DNA of 64,000 bases from Terriglobia bacterium (GTDB lineage: Bacteria; Acidobacteriota; Terriglobia; Acidiferrales; UBA7541), in assembly GCA_020072785.1 (NCBI GenBank), contig JAIQGG010000002.1, forward strand, positions 248,001 to 312,000, read 5' to 3'. A program made the position numbers and the translations under genes. Shown in pieces: positions 27,611-53,953 of this stretch. The first letter of the stretch is position 1, and every line of letters starts with the position of its first letter. The notes beneath the pieces were generated by a model. That model was given only the letters and a program-made list of their open reading frames with translations. It made no database searches and had not been told where the DNA came from.

Positions 27611-28366
27611 TCAGATCTCCCCCGCGCCGGTGTGATGCGGCCCCACGACCTTCACGAAAATCTCCTCGAGGTCCTGCTCGCCGTGCTGCGCGCGGAGCCC
27701 GGCCAGCGTGGCTTCGGCGAGCAGCTTGCCGTCGTGGATGATGCCGATGGTGTCGCAGAGCTTTTCCACTTCGCTCATGACGTGCGTGGAGAAGATGACG
27801 GTCTTGCCGCGGTCGCGGCACTCGCGGATGAAGGCAAGGATGGTCCGCGCGGTCATGACGTCCAGCCCCAGGGTCGGTTCGTCAAAGATCATCACCGGAG
27901 GATCGTGCACCAGCGTGCGGGCGATGGAGACCTTCTGCTTCATGCCCGTGGAGAGTTTGTCGCAGCGCCGCTCGCGGAAGCTGTCCATTTCCAGCCGCGC
28001 GAAGATTTCCGCCACGCGCCGCTGCAGCGTGACCTCGTCCAGCCCGTTCAGCCGCCCGAAGTATTCCACCATCTCCTGCGCCGTCAGCCGCGGATAGAGC
28101 GCCGTGGCGGTGGAGAGAAAGCCGACGCTGGCGCGCACTTTTTCCGGCTGCGCGACGATGTCGTAACCGGCCACGGCGGCCGTGCCGTCCGAGGGCTCCA
28201 GGATGGTGGCCAGCATGCGCAGTGTGGTGGTCTTGCCCGCGCCGTTGGCCCCCAGCAAGCCGTAGACCCGCCCGGGCTGGCAGGTAAAGCTGACGTTTTC
28301 CACGGCGTGGATCTCTCCGCGCTTCTTGTCCCGAAACCGTTTGCAGAGACCGCGCGCTTCAATCAT
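27611..28366 (-). CDS. NatA-like ABC exporter ATPase
   Basis: A 251-residue ATPase with Walker [11 protein letters not shown], signature [19 protein letters not shown], Walker [14 protein letters not shown] and the switch His in FSTHVMSE. It pairs with the NatB-like permease immediately downstream. A 58-residue zinc ribbon gene lies 35 bases upstream on the same strand and may be in the same transcript. Confidence 0.92.
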
Positions 28367-28401
28367 GGCAAGGGATCATGGGATCGGACGTTTCCGGCTG
28401 T

Positions 28402-28578
28402 TCAGCCTTTATGGCAGCTGGGGCATTGCTTGGCGTCGTAGTTCTCCGGCGCCACGCGGAACATCCCGTTGCACTGGATGCACACTCGGTGGATGGCGGG
28501 AGCGCCCGGTGGCGGGACCGGTGGGGGCCCTTTATGTTCGGGCTTGTTTGCTTGGGGTGCGGCCGGTGCACTGCTCAT
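28402..28578 (-). CDS. 58-residue zinc-ribbon protein
   Basis: Read on the minus strand from the ATG at 28578: a Pro/Ala-rich N-terminal half, then a compact zinc ribbon CIQC...CPSCHKG with two CxxC knuckles 17 residues apart (VCIQCNGMFRVAPENYD then AKQCPSCH). It ends at TGA 28404-28402. It sits 35 bases upstream of the NatA-like gene. There is no Shine-Dalgarno, but a TAGAAT lies six bases before the ATG, which would make the message leaderless. Function is unknown; a regulatory or adaptor role is possible. Confidence 0.6.
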   Translation of the reverse strand: MSSAPAAPQANKPEHKGPPPVPPPGAPAIHRVCIQCNGMFRVAPENYDAKQCPSCHKG

Positions 28579-28584
28579 GAGCGG

Positions 28585-28590
28585 ATTCTA
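28585..28590 (-). promoter_or_regulatory. Candidate -10 element for a leaderless transcript
   Basis: TAGAAT on the minus strand ends six bases before the zinc-ribbon ATG. No clear -35 is visible. Transcription would begin at or next to the start codon. Confidence 0.35.
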
Positions 28591-28629
28591 GCACGAGACC
28601 GGCCGCCGCCGCGCCCACGCGCATTCCCG

Positions 28630-28658
28630 TTGGCCGGACAGGGAAACGCCAGTAGAAT
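28630..28658 (+). promoter_or_regulatory. Candidate sigma70 promoter for the CRP/FNR gene
   Basis: TTGGCC (28630-28635), a 17-base spacer and TAGAAT (28653-28658). The leader to the TTG start at 28703 would be about 38 bases. Confidence 0.5.
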
Positions 28659-28702
28659 CGAGCGGTTGCACCGGCGCGCGCGGTGCGGGAAATGAGGCGG
28701 CT

Positions 28703-29404
28703 TTGCCCCTGGGCGCAAACGCAGAAGCGATCTTGCGGCGGATTCCCCTGTTTGCCGGGCTGACGGAGAGCGAGCTGCACGCCCTGGCGGCGCGCGTCAG
28801 CTCCAGGCACTTCGGCCGCGGCGAGCTGCTGTTTTCCGAGGGCGATCCCTGCCAGGGTCTGTTCATTGTCGCCGCGGGCAAGGTGCGCATCTTCAAGATG
28901 TCCGCGTCCGGCCGCGAGCAGATCCTGGCGCTGGAAGGCGCGGGCAGCACGATTGCCGAACTGCCTGTCTTCGACGGCGGCAACTATCCGGCCTCGGCCT
29001 CGGCCGCCGAAGATGCGGAAGTGCTGTTCATCTCCCGCAAGGATTTCCAGAACTTCTGCCGCGAGCATCCCGAAGTAGCGCTGAAGGTGATTGCCGTGGT
29101 CGGCGGGCGCCTGCGCCGCCTGGTGGGCATTATCGAGGAGTTGTCCTTCACCACGGTGCGGCAGCGCCTGATCACCCTGCTGCTGCGCCTGGCGCAGGAG
29201 AAAGGCGCCATGAGCAAGCAGGGAATCCGCATCGAGCTGGGCGCCAGCCACCAGGAACTGGCCGCGGAACTGGGCACGGTGCGCGAACTGGTGTCGCGCA
29301 ACTTGGGGCGGCTGCAGGCCGAAGGCCTGATTGAGGTGGAGGGCCGGGAGATCATCGTGAAGGACGCCGCCGGGCTGAAACGCGAGCAGGCGGCCGCGGA
29401 ATGA
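28703..29404 (+). CDS. CRP/FNR-family transcription regulator
   Basis: A 233-residue regulator starting at TTG 28703, with GAGG five bases upstream. The cNMP-binding-like beta-roll (residues 15-125) lacks the N-terminal cysteine cluster of FNR, so it is not an obvious Fe-S oxygen sensor. A dimerisation helix precedes the Crp-type winged HTH (about 180-225). In the recognition helix Glu195, Ser198 and Arg199 (RELVSRNLGR) match the E--SR pattern of FNR/DNR-type proteins that read TTGA half-sites. The iron-repair gene ric lies 88 bases downstream behind a matching dyad, pointing to a nitrosative or redox stress sensor. Confidence 0.9.
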   Translation: MPLGANAEAILRRIPLFAGLTESELHALAARVSSRHFGRGELLFSEGDPCQGLFIVAAGKVRIFKMSASGREQILALEGAGSTIAELPVFDGGNYPASASAAEDAEVLFISRKDFQNFCREHPEVALKVIAVVGGRLRRLVGIIEELSFTTVRQRLITLLLRLAQEKGAMSKQGIRIELGASHQELAAELGTVRELVSRNLGRLQAEGLIEVEGREIIVKDAAGLKREQAAAE

Positions 29405-29429
29405 GGCCGATCCCCGTTTTTCCCGCCCC

Positions 29430-29471
29430 GTGACTTTTGTCACTGCCAGCCCCAGCAGGCCTCTCTAGGAT
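29430..29471 (+). promoter_or_regulatory. FNR/DNR-type operator and -10 upstream of ric
   Basis: GTGACTTTTGTCAC at 29430-29443 is a perfect 5-bp dyad with a four-base spacer, the geometry of CRP/FNR-family sites (TTGAC-N4-GTCAA type). TAGGAT at 29466-29471 is a candidate -10. A start at about 29478 places the dyad centre at -41.5, the class II activator position. No good -35 is seen, as expected for an activated promoter. Confidence 0.55.
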
Positions 29472-29492
29472 GAAGTCATCAGGGAGGCGAAA

Positions 29493-30221
29493 ATGCAACT
29501 TTCGCATGACAGCAAATTGAAAGATGTGGTTCTGAATCATCCCGCGACGGCCGTGGTCCTGGAAAAGGCCGGCCTGGATTACTGCTGCGGGGGCAAGCAG
29601 ACGCTCGGCGAGGCGTGTATGCAGGCGGGCATGCCTCCGGAGGAACTGCTGGCGCGGCTGCAAGAAGCGGCGAGCGAGGACTCGCCGGAGAAGCAGAATT
29701 GGGCCGCGGCGCCGCTCGGGGCGCTGGCCAGCTATATCGTCGAAAAGCACCACGGCTACGTCCGCGAGGCTCTGCCGCGCATCACCGCGCATCTGGAGAA
29801 AGTGGCGGAGAAGCACGGCGAACGCCACCCCGAACTCTTCAAGATCCGGCAGGATTTCGACCTGGTGAGCCGCGAGATGACGCAGCACATGCAGAAAGAG
29901 GAGATGATTCTTTTTCCCTTTATCCAGCAGATGTCCGATGCGGTGGAGAGCGGCGCCGGGCTTTACGCGCCCTTCTTCGGCAGCGTGCAGCAGCCGGTCG
30001 CGATGATGATGCAAGAGCACGATACGGCTGGCGGGCTGGTCAACGAGATGAACAGCCTGAGCGGCGGTTATGTGGCGCCCGCCGACGGCTGTACCACCTA
30101 TGAGCTGGTCTACCGCGAGCTGGCGGAATTCGACCACGACCTGCGCACCCACGTGCATCTGGAGAACAACATCCTCTTTCCCCGCGCCGTCGAGCTGGAG
30201 CAGAAGCTGACGTACCGCTAG
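29493..30221 (+). CDS. ric: Iron-sulfur cluster repair protein (RIC/ScdA/YtfE)
   Basis: A 242-residue di-iron protein that repairs Fe-S centres after nitric oxide or oxidative damage. The N-terminal ScdA domain has the conserved cysteine pair in GLDYCCGGKQTL. The hemerythrin-like domain supplies His/Glu ligands in IVEKHHGYVREALPRI, MTQHMQKEEMILFPFI, MQEHDTAGGLVNEM and DLRTHVHLENNILFPRA. The start follows GGGAGG. A strong rho-independent terminator closes the gene. The upstream CRP/FNR gene and operator suggest it is induced by that regulator. Confidence 0.95.
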   Translation: MQLSHDSKLKDVVLNHPATAVVLEKAGLDYCCGGKQTLGEACMQAGMPPEELLARLQEAASEDSPEKQNWAAAPLGALASYIVEKHHGYVREALPRITAHLEKVAEKHGERHPELFKIRQDFDLVSREMTQHMQKEEMILFPFIQQMSDAVESGAGLYAPFFGSVQQPVAMMMQEHDTAGGLVNEMNSLSGGYVAPADGCTTYELVYRELAEFDHDLRTHVHLENNILFPRAVELEQKLTYR

Positions 30222-30239
30222 TCCGGGTTGCACGCGCCG

Positions 30240-30276
30240 GCCCGCCGGGAGACCTCCACCCGGCGGGCTTTTTTTT
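30240..30276 (+). terminator. Rho-independent terminator after ric
   Basis: A perfect 10-bp GC-rich stem, GCCCGCCGGG (30240-30249) with its complement at 30259-30268, a nine-base loop, and a run of eight T at 30269-30276. Confidence 0.92.
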
Positions 30277-30328
30277 GTTTCCGGGGCTGGCGGCATTCCA
30301 GGGAGCGGTGGGGACATCCACATCCAGC

Positions 30329-30348
30329 GTGACCGCAAAGCGGTCAAC
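30329..30348 (-). repeat. GACCGC/GCGGTC palindromic repeat, copy 1
   Basis: Minus-strand copy of GTTGACCGC, TTT, GCGGTCAC. The GTTGACCGC half is exact. It lies between the ric terminator and the HlyD-like gene. Confidence 0.75.
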
Positions 30349-30450
30349 ACTACTGGGCTGGGTGTGGGCTCTCGCCGGACTCGCGCAAGAGGTTGCTGGA
30401 GAAAGCGCTCGGGGAATTGCTAGAATGAAGGATATCGGCTAGGAGTGGAG

Positions 30451-30493
30451 CGCCCTGCGGTCACACTGGGAGTTGACCGCTGCGCGGTCACAC
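30451..30493 (+). repeat. GACCGC/GCGGTC palindromic repeat, copies 2 and 3 in tandem
   Basis: A partial copy (CGCCCTGCGGTCACAC at 30451-30466) is followed by a complete copy (GTTGACCGC, TGC, GCGGTCACAC at 30472-30493). Both are followed by a TGGAG/TGGGAG-like tail. They lie about 110 bases before the HlyD-like start codon. Confidence 0.75.
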
Positions 30494-30602
30494 ATGGAGA
30501 GGTTGGCGAGGCAGCGCTGCCGGCCGGCATCCCCGCACAACTGGAGCAAAGTGCCGCGGAACGGCGGGAGGATTGTGGTCCGGCCCCGGCAAACGGATAA
30601 CC

Positions 30603-31859
30603 ATGGAACGCAAGCTGCGAAATCGGATTCTGTTGTTCCTGCTGCTGGCGGGCGTGATCGCCTATGTGCTGGTATGGATGAGCGGGCGCCAGCCGGCGGC
30701 CAAAATCGCCGCGGTCCTGCCCGCGCGCGAGAATTTGGTGGCCTCCATCAGCAGCAACGGGAAAGTGGAGCCGATCGCGCCGTTCGTGATGCGCGCGCAG
30801 CTGGCCACTTTCGTGGATAAAGTCTATGCGCTGGAAGGACAAAGCCTGCACAAAGGGCAGCCGATCCTGGAGCTGGACGTAAAGGACGCCGCGGCGCAAC
30901 TGGCGCAGGCCCGCGCCAGTCTGCTGCGCGCGCAGGACGATCTGCGCGCCGCCCGCGCCGGCGGGCGCAGCGATGACATCGCCCGCGTTACAGGGGATCT
31001 GGTGCGCGCGCAGGCCGAGCGCGACCGCCTGCTGCGCGACAACGAAGCCCTCAAGCGCCTGGTGGCCCAGCAGGCCGCCACCAAGGACGAGCTGGCCGCC
31101 AACGAAGTGGCTCTGGCGCGCGCGCAATCCGAATACAACCGCCTGGCCGCGGTTAAGCAGGAGTTTGCCCGCCAGGTGCTGCTGGACGCCCAGCGCGCCG
31201 CCCTGCAGGTCGAGCAGGCGCGCAGCGAAGTGGCCGCGCTCGAGGAAAAGGTCCGCGAGAGCCGCGTCGTGGCTCCCGCCGACGGCACCTTGTATTCCCT
31301 CCCGGTGCGCACCGGCGATTTCGTCAAGGTTGGCGATCTGCTTGGGGAGATGGCCAATCTCCGCCAGGTGCGCGTGCGCGCCTTCATTGACGAGCCGGAG
31401 CTCGGCTCGCTGGCTCCCGACGAGCCGGTGACTATTACCTGGGACGCTCTGCCCAGCCGCTCCTGGCAGGGCCGCACCACGGTCATTCCCAAGCAGGTGG
31501 TGGCGCGCGGCACGCGCAGCGTCGGCGAGCTGTTGTGCGCCGTGAACAACGACAAGCTCGAGCTGCTCCCCAACACCAACGTAAACGTGCTCATCAACGC
31601 CAAGGAGCGTCAGCACGTCCTGGCCGTGCCGCGCGGCGCCGTGGAGCTGGAAGGCGGGCAGCGCTATGTTTTTGTCGTCAAGGACAACGATCTGGGCGTC
31701 GGCAAGAAGCACCTGGAGAAGCGCCAGGTGCAGGTCGGCATCGCCAGCCCCACCAGCTATGAGATCACCGGCGGTCTCCAGGAGGGCGAGTATGTCGCGC
31801 TACCGAGCGATGTCGATCTGAAGGACGGCATGGCCGTGCGCGTGGTCAATCTGGAGTAG
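30603..31859 (+). CDS. HlyD/MacA-like periplasmic adaptor
   Basis: A 418-residue membrane fusion protein. It has an N-terminal anchor (ILLFLLLAGVIAYVLVWM), a biotinyl-lipoyl half-domain, a long coiled-coil hairpin (about residues 95-220, rich in Ala/Gln/Arg heptads), the second lipoyl half (VVAPADGTLYSLPVRTGDFVKVGD) and beta-barrel and membrane-proximal domains. The ATG at 30603 was chosen because it directly precedes the basic residues of the anchor. It is first of a run with a TPR protein, an FtsX-type permease and a TolC-type channel, so it should bridge the inner-membrane and outer-membrane parts of one efflux pump. Confidence 0.9.
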   Translation: MERKLRNRILLFLLLAGVIAYVLVWMSGRQPAAKIAAVLPARENLVASISSNGKVEPIAPFVMRAQLATFVDKVYALEGQSLHKGQPILELDVKDAAAQLAQARASLLRAQDDLRAARAGGRSDDIARVTGDLVRAQAERDRLLRDNEALKRLVAQQAATKDELAANEVALARAQSEYNRLAAVKQEFARQVLLDAQRAALQVEQARSEVAALEEKVRESRVVAPADGTLYSLPVRTGDFVKVGDLLGEMANLRQVRVRAFIDEPELGSLAPDEPVTITWDALPSRSWQGRTTVIPKQVVARGTRSVGELLCAVNNDKLELLPNTNVNVLINAKERQHVLAVPRGAVELEGGQRYVFVVKDNDLGVGKKHLEKRQVQVGIASPTSYEITGGLQEGEYVALPSDVDLKDGMAVRVVNLE

Positions 31860-31886
31860 CAAGCGGGCGGCGGGGCAGGGTTTCCG

Positions 31887-32879
31887 ATGCGCAGCTCCAT
31901 CCTGGCACTCTTTCTTCTGGCCTCCGGCCTCGGGGCTGGCTTCACCGCGGCGCAAGGAGATTCGCGCGCGCTTTTCGAAGCGGGCCGCCAGGCCTACGAA
32001 GCCAGCCGGTATCCCAGGGCCGTGCAGCTTCTCCAACTGGTTGTGGCGGGCGATTCCCGGAACGCCGACGCTCTGCTCCTGCTGACCAAGTCCTACATCG
32101 AACTGGCGCAATACGACAAGGCCGTGGACAGCGCCGAGCGTGCCGTGGCCCTCGCCCCGCAGAGCTCCCTCTACCATCAGTGGCTCGGCAAGGCCTACGG
32201 CGAAAAGGCCGAACACGCTTCCTGGTTCTCCGCGATCTCCCTGGCCAAGAAGACGCACAAGGAATTCGAGATCGCCGTGCAGCTGGACGAGCACAATTTC
32301 GCCGCCCGCCAGGACCTCATCGAGTTCTATTGCAGCGCCCCGGGCATGGTCGGCGGCGGAGTAGATAAAGCCACGCCGCACATCGCCCGCCTGCTGGTGC
32401 TGGATGCCTCCGAAGGGCATTACGCGAAGGGCAACTGCCGCCGCCAGAAGAAGGATTTTGCCGCGGCGGACGCCGAATTCACCCTAGCCCTGGAATCCGG
32501 CCCGAAAGCCCCGGACCTGATCTACGACATCGGCGACTATGCCGTGAAGCAGAAGCAGCCGGCGCGCCTGCTGGCTGTCGTGGAGGCCGGCCAGAAGGCG
32601 GATCCCGCCGATCCCCGCGGCGATTACTACCAGGCCGTCGCCTTCCTCCTGAAAAACGAAAAAGCCGAGCAGGCCGAGCAGCTCTTGCGCTCCTACCTTC
32701 AGCGCGCACCGGTGCGCAACGCTTATCCGCGCCCCGCCGCCGCGCACGACTGGCTGGGGCACGCCCTCGAACGGCAGGGCAAGATCGCCGAGGCCTTGCA
32801 GGAATTTCGGGCCGCCCTGCAGGCCGATCCACGCAACAAGGATGCGCGTGAGTCCGTGGAGCGTCTGGAAAAGCACTGA
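31887..32879 (+). CDS. Secreted TPR protein
   Basis: A 330-residue protein with a signal peptide (ILALFLLASGLGAGFTAAQG) and at least five TPR-like repeats, for example ALFEAGRQAYEASRYPRAVQ, KSYIELAQYDKAVDSAERAV and AHDWLGHALERQGKIAEALQ near the C-terminus. It lies 27 bases after the adaptor gene. It is probably periplasmic and may help assemble or load the efflux complex. This is inference from position. Confidence 0.8.
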   Translation: MRSSILALFLLASGLGAGFTAAQGDSRALFEAGRQAYEASRYPRAVQLLQLVVAGDSRNADALLLLTKSYIELAQYDKAVDSAERAVALAPQSSLYHQWLGKAYGEKAEHASWFSAISLAKKTHKEFEIAVQLDEHNFAARQDLIEFYCSAPGMVGGGVDKATPHIARLLVLDASEGHYAKGNCRRQKKDFAAADAEFTLALESGPKAPDLIYDIGDYAVKQKQPARLLAVVEAGQKADPADPRGDYYQAVAFLLKNEKAEQAEQLLRSYLQRAPVRNAYPRPAAAHDWLGHALERQGKIAEALQEFRAALQADPRNKDARESVERLEKH

Positions 32880-51525: not shown

Positions 51526-51574
51526 GTTGACTGCTTCGCGGTCACACTTGCCGTTGACCGCTCTGCGGTCACAC
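51526..51574 (+). repeat. GACCGC/GCGGTC palindromic repeat, copies 4 and 5 in tandem
   Basis: Two near-identical units: GTTGACTGC-TTC-GCGGTCACAC at 51526-51547 and GTTGACCGC-TCT-GCGGTCACAC at 51553-51574, five bases apart. They lie directly before the ribosome site of the lptC/lptA-like gene. Confidence 0.85.
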
Positions 51575-51601
51575 GTACAAAGGAGCCGGCGCACCCGCAC
51601 G

Positions 51602-53953
51602 ATGCGCAGAACAGAAGCGGCGCGCTATGCGCGCTGGTCGGCTGGCGTGGCGATGGTTCTGGTGGCCATTACCCTAGGGGTGTATGTGCAGCGCGGCTGG
51701 GTGGCCCGGCGCGAGCGGAGGAAGGCCCCGCCGCCGGCGCCGCCGAGCGTGGAGAAGCAATCCACGGCGCTGACCTTTTCGAAAGTGGAAGGGAACCGCA
51801 CGCTGTTCACGGTGCGGGCATCGCGCTCCACGCAGTTCCGAGGGCGGGCGGAAGACCTCCTGGAAGACGTGCAGATCACGATTTTCGGGCGCAACGGCGA
51901 GCGCCACGACACGATCCACACGCGCAGCTGCCAGTACACCAAGGACGGCGGGAGGATCGCCTGCGCGGGCGAAGTGCAGATGGAGCTGCAGAGCGCCGCG
52001 GACGCGGAGCGCGCGGCGCAGGAGCGGGGAGCGCCGGCCACGCGCACCGTACACGTGGAAACGCGGGGCGTGAGCTTCGACCGCGAGAGCGGGGTGGCGC
52101 GCACGGAGCAGACCGTGAAATTCGCGTTCCCGGACGGGGAGGGGCAGGCGCAGGGGCTGGAGTATCGCTCGGACGAGGGGCTGCTGCGGCTGGAGAAAGA
52201 CGTGCGCCTGCGGGTGAAGCGGTTGGCGGAGGGCCGGGGGAAGGCGGCGGGCGTGGCGGGCGAGGAAGTGAACCTCACGGGAGCGAGCCTGGAATACCGG
52301 CGGGAGCAGCGGGTGATGAAGCTGGGCGGGCCGGTGCACGCTGTGTCGGAAGCTGCGGAACTGGCGGCGGGAGAGATGACGCTGGAGTTGGACGCGAATT
52401 ACCGCGCGCAGCGGCTGGTGGCGAAGGCGGGAGCGGCCAGCGGCGCGCGGCCGGAGGTGCGCGCGCAGCGCAGGGGCGGAGCGGGGCGGGTTTCCGCGGA
52501 CGAGATGGTCGCGGAGTTGGATGCCGGCGGGGCAGTTCGCCAGGTGCAGGGAACGGGGCAGGTGCAGGGGGAATTCTTGAATGGGGCGGTGGCGACGACA
52601 CTGGCCGCGCAGCACGTGGCCTTGGAATTTGCCGGGCGCAGCGCGGAGCCGCAGCAGTTGACGGCCACGGGCGCGGTGCAGGCGGAAACGCGCGCGGCGC
52701 GGCCAGGCGGCGCCGGGGAGACGCTGCGGCGGCTGCAGAGCGAGGCGGTGCGATTGAAATTCGCGCGGCGCGGCGCCAAAGGCGGGGCGCGCCTGGAGAG
52801 CGCGGAGACCCTGGCGCCGGGATCACTGGAGTGGGTTGACCGCTTTGCGGTCACACCTGGAGAAGAAAGCGGCGCGGGGCAGAGCGCGATGCGGCTGCAG
52901 GCGGAGCACATTCAGCTTGCGCTGCTGCCGAACGGACGCGCGGGCGAGGCCCTGGCGCGGGGGAACGTGCAAATCCAGCGGACGCTGCCGGGCCGGCCGG
53001 AGGAGACCAGCACGGCGCGGGAGGGCACGGCGCGCTTCGACGCGCAGGGCGACTGGACGGAGATGACGCTGCGGGGGGACGTGAAGGTGCGCGCCGGGGA
53101 GCGGCGCGGGCAGGCGGATACGGCAGTGTTCGTGCGGGCGGCGCAGACGGCGCAGCTGAGCGGAAACGCGCTGGTGAGCGATGCGGGAACGCGCACCACG
53201 GCGCACACGATTACCTTTTACCAAACCACGGGCGAGATTCTTGCGGAGGGCGGGGTGCGCTCGACGGATCTGGCGCCCCGCGGCGGGGCTGTGCAACTGG
53301 CTCCGGTGCCGGCGAATCTCTCGGCGGAGCGGTTGCAGGCCAATGCGCAGACGGGGCGGGCGGTCTACTCCGGGCACGCGCGGCTGTGGCAGGGCGATTC
53401 GGTGCTGGAGGCGGACAGGATCGAGATGCTGCGCAATGAGCGGGTGCTGAACGCGAGTGGAAACGTGCGCGCGGTCTTTCCTCAGACGGCGGCGGCACCG
53501 GGCGCGGCCGGGAGCCGGGCGCAGGGCGCGGGACGCGGCGGGCCGGCGCTGTGGCACGTGCAAGCCGGGACGCTGAGCTACCGCGAAGCGGAGAGCCGGG
53601 CGCGGTTGGAGGGCCAGGTGCTGGCGCAATCGGCGGGGCAGAGCATCCGCGCGGCGGCGCTGGACCTGGAATTCCGGCGCGGGGCGAACGGCGGGGCGCA
53701 GCAACTGAGCCGCGCGGTGGGCACCGGCGGGGTAACCGTGGCCCAGGATGGGCGGCGGGGCACCGCGGAGCGCGCGGAGTACAGCGTGAAGGAGGGGAAG
53801 TTCGTGCTTTCCGGGGGGAATCCGACGCTGTACGACGAGGCCAGCGGCACCACGACGGGGCGTCAATTGACCTTCTTTCTAGCGGATGATACGATCATCG
53901 TGGACTCAGAAAAAGGAACGCGCACGCTGACGAAGCACCGAGTCGAGAAATGA
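51602..53953 (+). CDS. LptC-LptA-type LPS export protein (fusion)
   Basis: A 783-residue protein with one N-terminal transmembrane anchor (residues 11-33, WSAGVAMVLVAITLGVYVQ). An LptC-like beta-jellyroll follows and then several OstA/LptA-like beta repeats (for example DADTAVF-type RRGQADTAVFVRAAQTAQLSG, VLEADRIEMLRNERVLNASG, YRRE...MKLGGPVHA). It should form the periplasmic bridge that carries LPS from the LptB2FG transporter outward. The start ATG 51602 excludes a repeat-derived upstream frame. Residues 412-419 (VDRFAVTP) are encoded by a GACCGC repeat. The gene lies six bases before lptB. Confidence 0.8.
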   Translation: MRRTEAARYARWSAGVAMVLVAITLGVYVQRGWVARRERRKAPPPAPPSVEKQSTALTFSKVEGNRTLFTVRASRSTQFRGRAEDLLEDVQITIFGRNGERHDTIHTRSCQYTKDGGRIACAGEVQMELQSAADAERAAQERGAPATRTVHVETRGVSFDRESGVARTEQTVKFAFPDGEGQAQGLEYRSDEGLLRLEKDVRLRVKRLAEGRGKAAGVAGEEVNLTGASLEYRREQRVMKLGGPVHAVSEAAELAAGEMTLELDANYRAQRLVAKAGAASGARPEVRAQRRGGAGRVSADEMVAELDAGGAVRQVQGTGQVQGEFLNGAVATTLAAQHVALEFAGRSAEPQQLTATGAVQAETRAARPGGAGETLRRLQSEAVRLKFARRGAKGGARLESAETLAPGSLEWVDRFAVTPGEESGAGQSAMRLQAEHIQLALLPNGRAGEALARGNVQIQRTLPGRPEETSTAREGTARFDAQGDWTEMTLRGDVKVRAGERRGQADTAVFVRAAQTAQLSGNALVSDAGTRTTAHTITFYQTTGEILAEGGVRSTDLAPRGGAVQLAPVPANLSAERLQANAQTGRAVYSGHARLWQGDSVLEADRIEMLRNERVLNASGNVRAVFPQTAAAPGAAGSRAQGAGRGGPALWHVQAGTLSYREAESRARLEGQVLAQSAGQSIRAAALDLEFRRGANGGAQQLSRAVGTGGVTVAQDGRRGTAERAEYSVKEGKFVLSGGNPTLYDEASGTTTGRQLTFFLADDTIIVDSEKGTRTLTKHRVEK
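52835..52856 (+). repeat. GACCGC/GCGGTC palindromic repeat, copy 6, inside the lptC/lptA-like gene
   Basis: GTTGACCGC, TTT, GCGGTCACAC at 52835-52856. It keeps the reading frame and encodes VDRFAVTP within a low-complexity loop between beta repeats. Confidence 0.85.

Follow-up and report, generated by a model that had tools for sequence, protein, structure and literature searches.

REPs of the GTAG and CGTC superfamilies are hairpins of 20–40 bp that occur in hundreds of copies and lie mostly between genes, but in many species they are also found within genes, in frame in proteins unrelated to one another (Di Nocera et al. 2013, PMC3733652). RPE-4 and RPE-6 are CGTC-type REPs of Rickettsia that lie in frame in genes (PMC3733652). 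The class 3 TnpA Y1 repeat structures of Acidobacteria reach up to ~600 copies in Solibacter (PMC6006769). In single-strand transposition, guide sequences choose both the flanking target and the element's final nucleotides (PMC6006769, PMC8266576). In-frame insertion of REP-like sequence is already known from the Rickettsia RPEs and the GTAG/CGTC REPs; distinctive in the repeat described here are its 27-nt unit, the phase of its target and its restriction to one genus in our sample.

This repeat has the features by which REPs are broadly recognized (a 20–40-nt hairpin, in high copy number, mainly intergenic), with 281 copies in the genome and 115 of 166 sampled units between genes. Its likeness to GTAG/CGTC REPs extends to in-frame intragenic units. 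Those families, however, form HH/TT dimers, whereas the units here form 27-nt head-to-tail arrays. CGTC REPs carry a CGTC tag, a stem of 8–9 bp, a loop of 4–5 nt and a CCA tail; here there is no CGTC, the stem is 7 bp and the loop 3 nt. The sequence logo shows no GTAG on either side, where GTAG REPs have it terminally at the hairpin foot. In a REPtron the repeat flanks its cognate tyrosine transposase gene, but we found no flanked RAYT among the three Y1_Tnp loci of this genome, and no correlation across the genus. Rickettsia RPE-1, RPE-4 and RPE-6 are likewise palindromic mobile repeats tolerated in frame in protein genes, but RPE-1 is longer and RPE-4/6 are CGTC-type, whereas the present unit is 27 nt, lacks the CGTC tag and belongs to Acidobacteriota. 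With IS200/IS605 elements and class 3 TnpA Y1 repeats it shares a hairpin, the lack of target duplication and a target motif at one end that resembles the other end. In place of a CnGA foot there is TTGA here, with one hairpin; the Y1 proteins show no class 3 motif and no transposase is linked. Small dispersed repeats of cyanobacteria, also very small mobile units of about 21–27 nt, are comparable in size but come from a different phylum.

The locus lies in a 64,000-nt stretch (the window) of the 3.73-Mb, 11-contig genome of a soil Terriglobia bacterium (Acidobacteriota; G000). The preliminary description had reported a palindromic element in frame within an LptC/LptA-like gene, with further copies upstream of this gene and of a HlyD-like gene. 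The relevant features, in window coordinates, are as follows.

51602–53953, + strand: LptC/LptA-like LPS-export gene, 783 aa (ORF with ATG at 51602 and stop at 53953; Pfam matches)
52835–52861, + strand: 27-nt unit, in frame, encoding VDRFAVTPG (exact consensus core; unit length from empty sites)
52837–52853, + strand: hairpin TGACCGC-TTT-GCGGTCA, 7-bp stem, 3-nt loop (predicted ssDNA fold −7.3 kcal/mol, z −4.2)
52862–52866, + strand: GAAGA adjoining the 3′ end of the lptC unit, fitting the derived target motif RWNGA
51526–51552, + strand: intergenic unit 1, 5′ of the lptC gene (motif scan; pair also in G007)
51553–51579, + strand: intergenic unit 2, head-to-tail with unit 1 at a 27-nt period (motif scan)
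51580–51584, + strand: AAGGA, the commonest target pentamer, after the intergenic pair 5′ of lptC
30327–30348, − strand: intergenic copy 5′ of the HlyD-like gene (motif scan)
30445–30498, + strand: intergenic head-to-tail pair of 27-nt units (starts 30445 and 30472), 5′ of the HlyD-like gene

The host protein matches PF03968 LptD_N (LptD_N/LptA; 5.6e-28) and PF06835 LptC (7e-7), and was matched in 59 of 61 genomes searched. The 22-nt core GTTGACCGCTTTGCGGTCACAC at 52835–52856 (+) is identical to the element first reported, and the copies upstream of both genes are present as claimed. The coding reading stands with one correction: the lptC unit is 27 nt and contributes nine residues (SLEW VDRFAVTPG EESG), not the eight of VDRFAVTP. 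With up to 3 mismatches allowed, the window holds 6 copies altogether, where shuffled sequence would be expected to give 0.03.

Two features of the surrounding sequence involve the closely related genome G007. Window positions 27786–32785 are 99.8–100% identical to G007 (C29:1–5000; L106), while neighbouring synteny is about 91%, and G007 has a second, 91%-identical version of the stretch on C26 (L117). This may reflect recent transfer, gene conversion or cross-binning of assemblies. Also on G007 C29 (L107, 4274–8181), downstream of the intergenic repeat pair, a truncated duplicate of the lptC 5′ end is followed by a 3.6-kb ABC-permease/ATPase/PadR cassette.

A genome-wide search, which the preliminary description had proposed together with a scoring of coding copies, returned the 281 copies at up to 2 mismatches; a reversed-pattern control returned 0. 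G007 carries 260 copies, G005 108 and other species of the genus 0–19. The family is restricted to one genus among the sampled genomes, matches with ≤1 mismatch being confined to it across 151 genomes of the class. An Rfam search gave no family matches, and the sequence is undescribed in open-access papers searched by words rather than by sequence.

We took a census of units in 2.0 Mb (contig C1 and the first 1.24 Mb of C2). The 166 units fall into 122 clusters, 83 single, 34 double and 5 triple, and neighbouring units share the same orientation at a spacing of almost always exactly 27. Each unit comprises the 22-nt core, with consensus hairpin GTTGACCGC-TTY-GCGGTCACRC, and a 5-nt tail (about AWRNA). 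Over ~360 kb of aligned orthologous sequence, 90.8% identical between G000 and G007, an occupied site mostly exceeds its empty counterpart by 27, 54 or 81 nt, and arrays mostly differ in length by +27 or +108. Other measured gaps (23, 25, 28, 50, 53, 55 and 83 nt) are consistent with one to three units once small indels or alignment slack are allowed for. Because the two genomes differ by whole 27-nt multiples, we take the unit to be 27 nt. No target duplication was seen between their empty and occupied sites. At G007 C106:1198–1381 (L105), seven head-to-tail units, six of them followed by the same tail TTATC, lie between two thiolase-like genes; this array is probably a recent slippage expansion.

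Sequence conservation around the units is one-sided. The 5′ flank has almost none, whereas the last unit is followed by R-W-N-G-A; position 31 is G in 102 of 122 clusters. The strict form of the motif follows 50 of 122 clusters, fewer than half, against a background of 1.5%. Since the target G is already present in 15 of 17 usable empty sites in the G007 comparison, RWNGA is for the most part a target that predates insertion rather than a piece of the unit. GTTGA, with which the unit itself begins, also fits RWNGA. Unit orientation showed no association with local GC skew, and thus no lagging-strand preference. AAGGA targets resemble Shine–Dalgarno sequences. Among intergenic clusters on C1 and C2 with a same-strand downstream gene, 13 of 58 end ≤25 nt from its start, and units near gene starts may alter translation initiation.

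Genes are strongly avoided, since 115 of the 166 units are intergenic in a sample that is 83% coding. Genes were called with a home-made codon-usage caller whose starts are uncertain, so 15 units near a called N-terminus are ambiguous and were kept apart. The remaining units are 19 internal, 4 C-terminal, 10 partial and 3 in short ORFs. Translated, the internal and C-terminal ones are VDRFAVT-like (17), LTASRS-like (3) or antisense CDREAVN-like (3). Four of the six unit frames are open, and the two that contain stops are never used by these units. Hosts with recognized domains include asparaginase, a class-I GATase/C26 peptidase, DapD, TilS, a CocE/PepX hydrolase, a YdjM-type membrane protein and a TonB protein. 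The last of these (G000 C1:574394–576520) has five VDRFAVT units in linker regions, three of them in tandem. The in-frame unit in lptC, initially regarded as unusual, is therefore not exceptional to this gene, with ~19 of 166 sampled units gene-internal.

That insertions stay in frame is no special coincidence, the unit being nine codons long. Gene-internal RWNGA sites in G000 are phased so that 18,686 would yield VDRFAVT and 19,498 CDREAVN, and 2,518 of 50,205 (5%) would place a stop in frame; owing to nine-codon length and target phase together, most coding insertions thus leave the frame unharmed. The observed excess of the VDRFAVT over the CDREAVN frame is beyond what target phase alone explains and may reflect selection on the peptide. 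A direct coding case occurs in G007 (L123:11556), where a unit adds nine residues inside a 549-aa ORF (ALPHPLRG^VDRSAVTLE^KDGG) and the G000 allele is empty (ALPHALRG^KDGG). Here and in lptC, a palindromic element lies in frame in a gene and is missing from orthologues, as expected of an RPE-like coding element; DapD, TilS and others carry units within their ORFs as well. A further candidate, a C-terminal insertion at G007 L125:19459, was dropped because no gene is called there.

We then compared the lptC site across relatives. The G007 orthologue carries two units at the same point as the single unit here (WVDRLAVTKTVDRIAATP), an addition of 27 nt. Because these two units are unlike in loop and tail, the second probably inserted separately, or else one unit may have been lost from the present genome. 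Conservation of the segment among relatives at large would have spoken against an inserted repeat, but VDRFAVTPG is absent from 28 of 28 other lptC orthologues of the genus. In the nearest-scoring of these, W-EES or W-TEH are directly joined, and removing VDRFAVTPG in silico leaves GSLEW-EESG, resembling LDW-EESS of G009. The linker is too variable for its length to serve as a test: across the 28, removal of the nine residues gave a better global score against 6 of 28 orthologues and a worse or equal score against 22. An exact empty lptC allele was not found in a sample where one orthologue is 89% identical and the others about 55% or less. The view that a mobile REP-like unit turned coding in lptC draws instead on its absence from the 28 orthologues, its doubling in the closest relative and whole 27-nt insertions at empty sites elsewhere. 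As judged from sequence, insertion in lptC is well supported by the behaviour of the family rather than proven by an empty allele. The unit adds VDRFAVTPG to a linker between LptA-like repeats, most likely as a tolerated, near-neutral passenger and not as a functional part; a tolerant loop at this site, as originally suggested, is plausible.

At the level of sequence comparison, the unit size, presence/absence polymorphism, pre-existing target, 27-nt arrays, restriction to one genus among the sampled genomes and coding copies are established. We consider it likely that the family is a non-autonomous mobile repeat of 27 nt that inserts without target duplication directly 5′ of an RWNGA-like site and survives in genes as nine codons. 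Its insertions resemble those of IS200/IS605-type elements in having a fixed flanking motif that is similar to the element end, as read from GTTGA/TCAAC. The lack of target duplication, the fixed motif and this resemblance lead us to expect transposition as single-stranded DNA, as in IS200/IS605 or REP elements, which would be carried out by an HuH/Y1-type enzyme. Read on the other strand, the unit ends in TCAAC and its adjoining target is TCNWY, so that one cleavage specificity could serve both ends. Counting against the model are the lack of a transposase linked to the unit, the lack of association between orientation and GC skew, and the strict target motif at fewer than half of the clusters. 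The predicted junction is GTTGACCGCTTCGCGGTCACACATACA followed directly by AAGGA. The GTTGA start of one unit would in turn be the target for the next, building head-to-tail arrays with a unit-length period. Coding insertions would be tolerated as 27 nt equals nine codons and RWNGA phasing puts the element's stop in frame at ~5% of sites. We propose more tentatively, as a possibility falling somewhat short of an even chance, that the unit is self-targeting: its length, target and own end would together keep almost all coding insertions in frame and give rise to head-to-tail arrays, with VDRFAVTxx recurrently added to unrelated, partly essential proteins.

An alternative is a classical REP of the GTAG or CGTC superfamily, mobilized by a resident RAYT and occasionally caught in genes. 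Copy number, the short hairpin, the mostly intergenic location and the intragenic units all match the REPs of PMC3733652, and the genome does encode three Y1_Tnp genes. None of these three has good flanking units, however, and across the genus neither Y1_Tnp numbers nor homologues track unit abundance, the most similar homologues occurring in species with few elements. A RAYT was rejected as driver on these grounds, and a class 3 TnpA because its Y motif is unseen in the three Y1 proteins. Considering also that neither superfamily tag appears in the logo and that head-to-tail pairs dominate here, while GTAG/CGTC families form mainly HH dimers, we regard a classical REP as possible but doubtful.

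The arrays could also stem from replication slippage or duplication of an ancestral repeat, dispersed by recombination rather than transposition. In some arrays, such as the seven-unit one of G007 C106, units and tails are indeed identical, and neighbouring units share more with each other than do units paired at random (7.5 versus 5.8 of 11 variable positions). Yet in 39 of 44 adjacent pairs the loop and tail clearly differ, which speaks against simple slippage, and an insertion mechanism is required for lone units that have exact empty sites and a target motif; this explanation is partly refuted and, as a whole, unlikely. That the palindromes are selected binding sites of a regulator or nucleoid protein, with coding copies incidental, would fit the many copies 5′ of genes and the 13 of 58 clusters ending close to a same-strand gene start. 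We judge this quite improbable, given that presence varies between close relatives, whole tails and units are gained or lost, many units lie within unrelated genes and none were found in other genera sampled. Lastly, VDRFAVTP might be ordinary conserved protein sequence that resembles the repeat by chance, as a linker of variable length that is not clearly shorter in most orthologues might suggest. An exact 22-nt match to a 281-copy family, missing from 28 genus orthologues and doubled in the closest relative, makes such a coincidence extremely improbable.

A mobile 27-nt repeat of this kind, present in hundreds of copies and with both a close relative and exact empty sites for comparison, lets one read directly how some of the smallest mobile DNA known has spread. 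The comparison also offers an explanation, at the level of sequence, for how such an element can land in genes and not destroy them. The same nonapeptide, recurrently added to unrelated proteins, represents a route from non-coding repeat to protein sequence. If self-targeting holds true, the 27-nt unit would be one of the smallest gene-friendly transposable units.
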